Shown: in pieces, positions 6,141 through 7,486 of the stretch | How positions within the stretch are numbered: the first letter of the stretch is position 1 | Layout: each line of letters begins with the position of its first letter | Source of the DNA: Gemmatimonas sp. | GTDB lineage: Bacteria; Gemmatimonadota; Gemmatimonadetes; Longimicrobiales; Longimicrobiaceae | Assembly: GCA_009380025.1 (NCBI GenBank) | Contig: WHSP01000005.1 | Location: 1-64,000 of the forward strand | Length of the DNA: 64,000 bases | Direction: 5' to 3' | Notes under the pieces: model-generated | The model's input: only the letters and a program-made list of their open reading frames with translations | Told to the model about the DNA's origin: nothing | The model's database searches: none | Made by a program: the position numbers and the translations under genes

Positions 6141-6170
6141 TTGACACGTGAGCGGAAGCGGGACTATACT
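6141..6170 (+). promoter_or_regulatory. Sigma70-type promoter for the metK leader
   Basis: TTGACA (6141-6146), 18-nt spacer, TATACT (6165-6170). Confidence 0.75.
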
Positions 6171-6186
6171 CCTGACGCGCCATGTG

Positions 6187-6245
6187 CGCCGCGGCGATTT
6201 CTAGCGATTGCTCCGCGTTACAAATGTGCTAAACCGCGAGGGGGT
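6187..6245 (+). ncRNA. SAM-II riboswitch aptamer
   Basis: CGCGG-CGATTTCTAGCGATTGCT-CCGCG stem-loop followed by TTACAAATGTGCTAAACCGCGAGGGG; closely parallels the SAM-II aptamer (GAUUU...AUUGC loop, GCUAAA 3' strand) and precedes metK. Confidence 0.87.
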
Positions 6246-6276
6246 CCCCAGCGGATAGCTAGGGGACCCTTCTTGT
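6241..6276 (+). terminator. Putative riboswitch expression-platform terminator
   Basis: GGGTCCCCAGC (6242-6252) / GCTAGGGGACCC (6258-6269) hairpin followed by TTCTTGT. Confidence 0.65.
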
Positions 6277-6340
6277 CGCTGCTCCGACCGCCGGTCGCCA
6301 CGACGGCCGGCCCCTGAAATCGAACCCAACTCGACCGCCC

Positions 6341-7486
6341 ATGAGCGCTGTGGAGAGCTCGCTCCGCGCACCAGCGAGGACTACCTATACTTTCACGTCC
6401 GAGTCGGTCTCGGAAGGCCATCCGGACAAGGTTTGCGACTATATTGCCGATTCGATCCTCGACGCCCACCTGGTGCAAGACCCAGACAGCCGGGTCGCCT
6501 GCGAGGTGCTCTGCAAAGAGGATCGGGTCGTTCTGGCCGGCGAAATCACGTCCGGTGCAACGGTCGATCTCGACGCCGTCGTCCGACAGGCGATCGAGGA
6601 GATTGGGTATGTGGATCCGGACCAGCCTTTCCGCCCCGACGCGGTGAAGATCCTCTCCTTCCTGAGCCAGCAGTCCTCGGAAATCGATCAGGGCGTATCC
6701 GCCGGCACCTCTCTTTCTGGCGAGCAAGGCGCAGGGGACCAGGGGATCATGTTCGGCTATGCGACGGCAGAAACGCCCGAGCTGATGCCCCTCCCGATCC
6801 TACTCGCGCACCGGCTCGCCGCGACGCTGGCAACCCACCGCAAAATCGGCACAGTAGACTGGCTCCGTCCCGACGCCAAGACCCAGGTCTCGGTCACCTA
6901 CTGTGGCAACGAGCCTCTGCAGGTCACCGATGTGCTGATCTCGACGCAGCACGCGGCTTCCGTCGACCGCGAAACCATTCGGAACTTCCTCGCCACCACC
7001 GTGATCCCCGAGGCCCTGGCCGGCTGGTTCCACGATGATCTCCGCATCCTCGTGAACCCGACAGGGAGCTTCGTCCTGGGCGGGCCCTCGGCGGACGCCG
7101 GCGTGACGGGACGAAAGATCATCGTAGACACATACGGCGGGATGGGGCGGCACGGAGGAGGTGCCTTCAGCGGCAAGGATTCGTCGAAGGTCGATCGAAG
7201 CGGCGCCTACTTCTGCCGGAAGGTGGCCCGGGAGGTCGTCCGGAACGGCTTCGGCAAGAAGGCGGAGCTTCAGGTTGCCTATGCCATCGGAATGGCGCAG
7301 CCGATCTCGATCAAGGTAGACACGTTCGGTACCGGTGACGACCGGGCCGCCGCCGACTTCATCCGGGACAATTTCGACTTTCGGCCCCGGTCCATCGTGG
7401 AGACACTCGACTTGCTCCGGCCGATCTTCCGAACTACGACCAACTACGGCCACTTCGGCAAGCCGGCGCTGCCCTGGGAACTTTGA
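6341..7486 (+). CDS. metK: S-adenosylmethionine synthase
   Basis: FTSESVSEGHPDKVCDYIADSILDA, GAGDQGIMFGYA, GGGAFSGKDSSKVDRS motifs. Confidence 0.98.
   Translation: MSAVESSLRAPARTTYTFTSESVSEGHPDKVCDYIADSILDAHLVQDPDSRVACEVLCKEDRVVLAGEITSGATVDLDAVVRQAIEEIGYVDPDQPFRPDAVKILSFLSQQSSEIDQGVSAGTSLSGEQGAGDQGIMFGYATAETPELMPLPILLAHRLAATLATHRKIGTVDWLRPDAKTQVSVTYCGNEPLQVTDVLISTQHAASVDRETIRNFLATTVIPEALAGWFHDDLRILVNPTGSFVLGGPSADAGVTGRKIIVDTYGGMGRHGGGAFSGKDSSKVDRSGAYFCRKVAREVVRNGFGKKAELQVAYAIGMAQPISIKVDTFGTGDDRAAADFIRDNFDFRPRSIVETLDLLRPIFRTTTNYGHFGKPALPWEL

Follow-up and report, generated by a model that had tools for sequence, protein, structure and literature searches.

The closest described relatives of the leader reported here are the SAM-II riboswitches (RF00521) of S. 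meliloti metZ and A. tumefaciens metA. These fold helices P1 and P2 into an H-type pseudoknot with a GAUUU / UUGC / GCUAAA ligand pocket, lie just downstream of a promoter, are followed by a terminator after P2 and serve methionine/SAM genes. Transcription of alphaproteobacterial SAM-II leaders usually starts a few nucleotides before P1 (PMC1273637). Most or many SAM-II elements are predicted to act via transcription terminators (PMC6061858, PMC2258182, PMC1273637), which contradicts the view, taken in an earlier sequence-only reading of this DNA, that the class is usually translational; the termination step at S. meliloti metZ is itself a structure prediction with indirect support (PMC9373788). 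No metK is listed among the targets of SAM_alpha in ~200 proteobacterial genomes (PMC4239095). Other SAM-sensing leaders, namely SAM/SAH (RF01727), SAM-III and SAM-VI, do occur before metK, with folds that differ from SAM-II and without a match in the DNA analysed here. All three are described mainly as acting on translation.

The window, a 64,000-nucleotide stretch of contig C434 from a 5.0-Mb draft genome (97% complete), contains a leader that resembles the metZ and metA riboswitches in pseudoknot, pocket, upstream promoter and downstream terminator. Unlike them, it occurs in Gemmatimonadota and precedes metK, it has an additional hairpin (P0) adjoining P1 and a short 3-bp upper P2, and it scores far below the Rfam cut-off. 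We consider it very likely that this leader is a SAM-responsive transcription attenuator (an OFF switch) with SAM-II architecture, which would provide end-product feedback on the only SAM synthetase gene identified in this genome; the earlier proposal of SAM-II/terminator attenuation of metK is supported as a reading of sequence features. The promoter, P0, P1, P2, pocket, antiterminator and terminator are based on sequence and comparative evidence, from which we infer the switching.

All features discussed here are on the plus strand. A strong promoter (6141-6170) comprises TTGACA at 6141-6146, an 18-base spacer and TATACT at 6165-6170, as previously described and now confirmed by direct reading and a script check; 11 of its 12 letters agree with consensus, with 0.1 such occurrences expected in shuffles. 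The 5' start of the transcript is expected near 6176, and the leader is ~165 nt long. metK (6341-7486) encodes a 381-aa S-adenosylmethionine synthetase that scores 489 bits against TIGR01034 (cut-off 309) and is the only metK match in its genome. Its start lies 64 nt beyond the terminator tail, close to the earlier estimate of about 65 nt. The gene is apparently transcribed alone, because its 5' neighbour encodes a TorF-type porin (same strand) and its 3' neighbour lies on the opposite strand.

The SAM-II-like aptamer occupies 6190-6237 and is defined by pattern, by a family-specific model (R2) and by covariation. P1 pairs CGCGG (6190-6194) with CCGCG (6213-6217) and encloses L1, with GAUUU at 6196-6200, together with the 5' strand of P2 (6204-6211), which consists of GCG (6204-6206), A6207 and UUGC (6208-6211). 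The 3' strand of P2 and the rest of the pocket follow at 6228-6237 (GC-U-AA-AC-CGC), where CGC at 6235-6237 pairs with GCG at 6204-6206 and U6230 corresponds to U44 of PDB 2QWY. Conserved blocks are GAUUU, AUUGC (6207-6211) and AAAUGUGCUAAA (6222-6233), and the composite SAM-II pattern occurs once in the 64 kb and never in 100 shuffles. P0 is a 5'-terminal hairpin at 6177-6189 (GCGC 6177-6180 / GCGC 6186-6189) and is included in constrained folds of the leader. Most of 37 relatives have a similar hairpin of differing sequence, whose 3' end is the base before P1 or a neighbour of that base, and P0 may stack on P1. The plain minimum-energy fold of the leader (z = -1.6) is uninformative, because that method cannot represent P2.

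Rfam gave a mixed answer to the SAM-II assignment. RF00521 is the sole family reported for the metK leader and matches over its full length (1-79), at only 14.5 bits against a gathering cut-off of 36, so we label the element as SAM-II-type, divergent subfamily, rather than as a plain RF00521 member; the cut-off is a database threshold and not a biochemical criterion. At gathering thresholds no Rfam family matches within the window. RF00521 also has no match in the whole genome at E 0.001, which marks a sensitivity limit because control genomes are silent as well. Leaders of the same type among 16 searched in relatives score 19-25 bits. In 12 of 61 genomes of the order, other SAM-II copies score above the Rfam cut-off, which places the class in the phylum. 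The ambiguity is settled in favour of SAM-II by covariation and model R2, and the SAM-II-type aptamer claimed in the sequence-only reading therefore stands. R2 was built from 11 sequences of other families in the order, with the window and its own family left out to avoid circularity. It matches 6189-6238 at 56.7 bits, with E = 1.5e-11 in the window (next match E = 2) and E = 1.2e-9 across the whole genome. An alignment of 29 distinct sequences shows P1 paired in 100% of cells, with exchanges at one pair (G-C in 16, C-G in 13) and at another (G-C in 26, A-U in 3). At the top of P2, five of these sequences have A-U in place of G-C (GCG/CGC becomes ACG/CGU). P1 and P2 together are paired in 99.4% of cells in this set, compared with ≤52% when the partner is slid, and their covariation is 0.176 against 0.071 after shuffling. 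A different pseudoknot SAM class has a claim to be considered, since SAM-V has the same core fold as SAM-II (PMC6061858) and SAM/SAH controls metK in Rhodobacterales (PMC4239095). Such an assignment is scarcely credible here: searches up to E = 10 return none of SAM-V (RF01826), SAM/SAH and SAM-VI, either for the leader or for the 16 related leaders.

The pocket bears on which ligand the SAM-II-type aptamer would bind. Thirteen nucleotides form the SAM pocket of PDB 2QWY (U10-12, U20-C23 and G42-A47), in which the O4 atoms of U11 and U21 recognise the sulfonium of SAM (PMC3764141). All 13 are present in the leader as U6198-U6200, U6208-C6211 and G6228-A6233. Drift of a SAM-II-like pseudoknot to another ligand, such as S-adenosylhomocysteine, would fit the divergence from Rfam SAM-II and the replacement of GAUUU by GAGUU in seven of 16 aligned metK elements (L034-L036, L039, L040, L048, L049), in which G replaces U10 beside the adenine site; rare spermidine-sensing variants of a SAM aptamer are also reported (PMC10853860). 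For the window such drift is most improbable, given that its entire pocket is of SAM-II type, including U11 and U21, and that the genes served by these elements are metK, metX, metY and metH. Judged by its sequence, the leader very probably senses SAM.

Beyond the aptamer lies the strong hairpin with TTCTTGT noted earlier, an intrinsic terminator at 6241-6276 with arms 6241-6252 and 6258-6269, a bulged A6261 and a stability of -21.5 kcal/mol. Its T tail (TTCTTGT, 6270-6276) is imperfect, and a simple terminator scan missed the hairpin, probably because of the bulged A. An equivalent hairpin with a T-rich tail occurs in nearly all relatives. Overlapping it is a predicted antiterminator (6234-6254) in which CCGC (6234-6237) pairs with GCGG (6251-6254) and GGG (6240-6242) with CCC (6247-6249), with a stability of -10.5 to -11.6 kcal/mol. 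This antiterminator is the terminator's own 5' arm refolded, so that 6241-6252 belongs to both hairpins, and its CCGC strand doubles as the 3' strand of P2. P2 and the terminator are therefore compatible, while the antiterminator excludes both. Among 35 distinct relatives, 32 have a predicted antiterminator that begins directly after GCUAAA (L099, L106 and L118 have none), compared with an expectation of 16.9 when the downstream sequence is dinucleotide-shuffled. The relatives in this comparison are not statistically independent, and the GCGG partner of CCGC is also found within the terminator region. Outer pairs in relatives are CCGC/GCGG, GCGC/GCGC or CCGC/GUGG, with both sides changed in two relatives (GCGC/GCGC) and one side changed in others (GUGG); inner pairs vary. 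A different role had been suggested for CCGCG at 6234-6238, as an alternative partner of the P1 strand CGCGG. Only 19 of 37 relatives reach four of the five pairs of this alternative, and changes in P1 are not mirrored in it; the pairing is not conserved and was rejected.

These overlaps suggest how the switch could work. When SAM is scarce, CCGC in the emerging RNA would pair with GCGG, and the resulting antiterminator would trap the 5' arm of the terminator so that metK is transcribed. Plentiful SAM would bind the P1/P2 pseudoknot and stabilise P2, which would retain CCGC and block the antiterminator; 6241-6252 would then pair with 6258-6269 and RNA polymerase would stop at 6270-6276, before metK. 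In predicted folds of RNA ending at 6254-6262, the free leader forms the antiterminator and a leader with P1 and P2 held does not. Once the RNA extends to ~6266, minimum-energy folding yields the terminator whether or not P1 and P2 are held. Because the terminator (-21.5 kcal/mol) exceeds the antiterminator (-10.5 kcal/mol) in stability and is the minimum-energy fold in both states once complete, the switch would have to be kinetic and decided during transcription. Dominance of the completed terminator in both states would equally suit a constitutive terminator, uncoupled from SAM, behind a genuine SAM-II aptamer, with any regulation acting on RNA stability or translation, as described for Sinorhizobium meliloti metA, where the terminator after the aptamer is not predicted to be SAM-responsive (PMC9373788). 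We regard this arrangement as unlikely at metK: sharing the same four bases between P2 and the antiterminator, as in the 32 relatives, would be needless for a constitutive terminator, and the vicinity of the aptamer shows no obvious ribosome-binding sequence, the metK start being ~100 nt further downstream.

SAM-responsive attenuation also fits the genes that carry these elements. A survey of related metK leaders, suggested in the sequence-only reading, located the same element immediately before metK in 20 genomes of Gemmatimonadota, including the window's own (20 distinct sequences from three families). Relatives with the element are mostly metagenome assemblies labelled Gemmatimonadetes, Gemmatimonadota, Longimicrobium or Longimicrobiaceae, and on this basis the window's genome is assigned to Gemmatimonadota, within or close to Longimicrobiaceae. 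In some of these genomes metY lies 3' of metK. The window's genome has a SAM-II element of the same type before metX (C445) and a second form before metH (C55), which scores 23.7 bits with RF00521 and whose gene was judged by eye. Elsewhere in the phylum, SAM-II elements precede metY and, judged by eye, metH- and metF-like genes. Together these genes make up a methionine/SAM regulon whose final step is metK. No paper on SAM-II in Gemmatimonadota, or on a SAM riboswitch in Gemmatimonas, turned up in the literature covered, and neither did a SAM-II element before metK; priority is not proven. Read from its sequence, the leader is a genuine riboswitch of a known kind whose details are new: a divergent SAM-II variant in Gemmatimonadota, with a readable antiterminator, that would act on metK by terminating transcription. 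It brings SAM-II to a phylum and a target gene, that of SAM synthetase itself, without an earlier report in the literature covered, and SAM-II control of metK would close the product-feedback loop directly.

Several relatives have a second pseudoknot in the metK leader. This element (type B) is SAM-II-like, with the form GCUUUGA..CGACAGCUUGGCG..CGCCUAAAGCGUCG, and stands in tandem with SAM-II between the first terminator and metK, usually followed by a terminator-like hairpin of its own. It occurs in 13 of 159 genomes of the order, in the metK leaders L032, L034, L035, L037, L039-L042 and L044 and also at L132-L135. Its core is UUU / UUG / CUAAA and its P2 is longer; P1 covaries, and the 12-bp P2 is nearly invariant and so depends on complementarity alone. 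No Rfam family matched type B in the related leaders searched. Away from metK, type B is also found behind a SAM-II element (G065/G140), and it stands alone before a gene for a hypothetical protein (G054/G055). In another family, a single metK-leader variant (type C; L045-L047, L145-L148) consists of a CGACUUGACGG..CCGUCUAAGUCG pseudoknot with a terminator; it does not have the A that matches A47, and its ligand may therefore differ. SAM-II/SAM-V and SAM-II/SAM-II tandems are known (PMC9481103), so the tandem principle is not new; the second elements of the relatives appear to be. These tandems and the metK leaders of several relatives alike place two SAM-type pseudoknots in series; unlike the known cases, the second element of the relatives falls outside Rfam, and the window has the first element only, without type B. 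The second element of these relatives is thereby a candidate that can be tested as a further SAM-type aptamer. More tentatively, and at somewhat less than an even chance, Gemmatimonadota may have their own SAM-feedback system on metK: a divergent SAM-II subfamily, marked by P0 and a shared-strand antiterminator, would act in many relatives in series with a second pseudoknot class outside Rfam (type B, with the single type C in another family), and type B, as a new SAM-II-like aptamer, would sense SAM, or else it would sense a related metabolite, so that control of SAM synthesis would have two inputs or be steeper.

Two metK genes are present in many relatives (L050 and L052-L059 versus L031-L049). 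One copy is ~60-80% identical to that in the window and usually has a SAM-II or type C leader; the other is ~54% identical and, in at least L055, apparently adjoins ahcY-like sequence. The window's genome has only the metK type that usually carries a SAM-II or type C leader. At four distinct loci (L009, L011, L069, L126) a gene for a RimK-like ATP-grasp protein lies directly behind a SAM-II element, which makes the protein a candidate methionine/SAM-related enzyme. In other genomes of the order, SAM-II elements occur in up to three copies per genome before genes for short hypothetical proteins, a histone deacetylase-like protein and proteins without a Pfam match (L114-L116, L124, L125); these copies are possibly mobile or spread by duplication.
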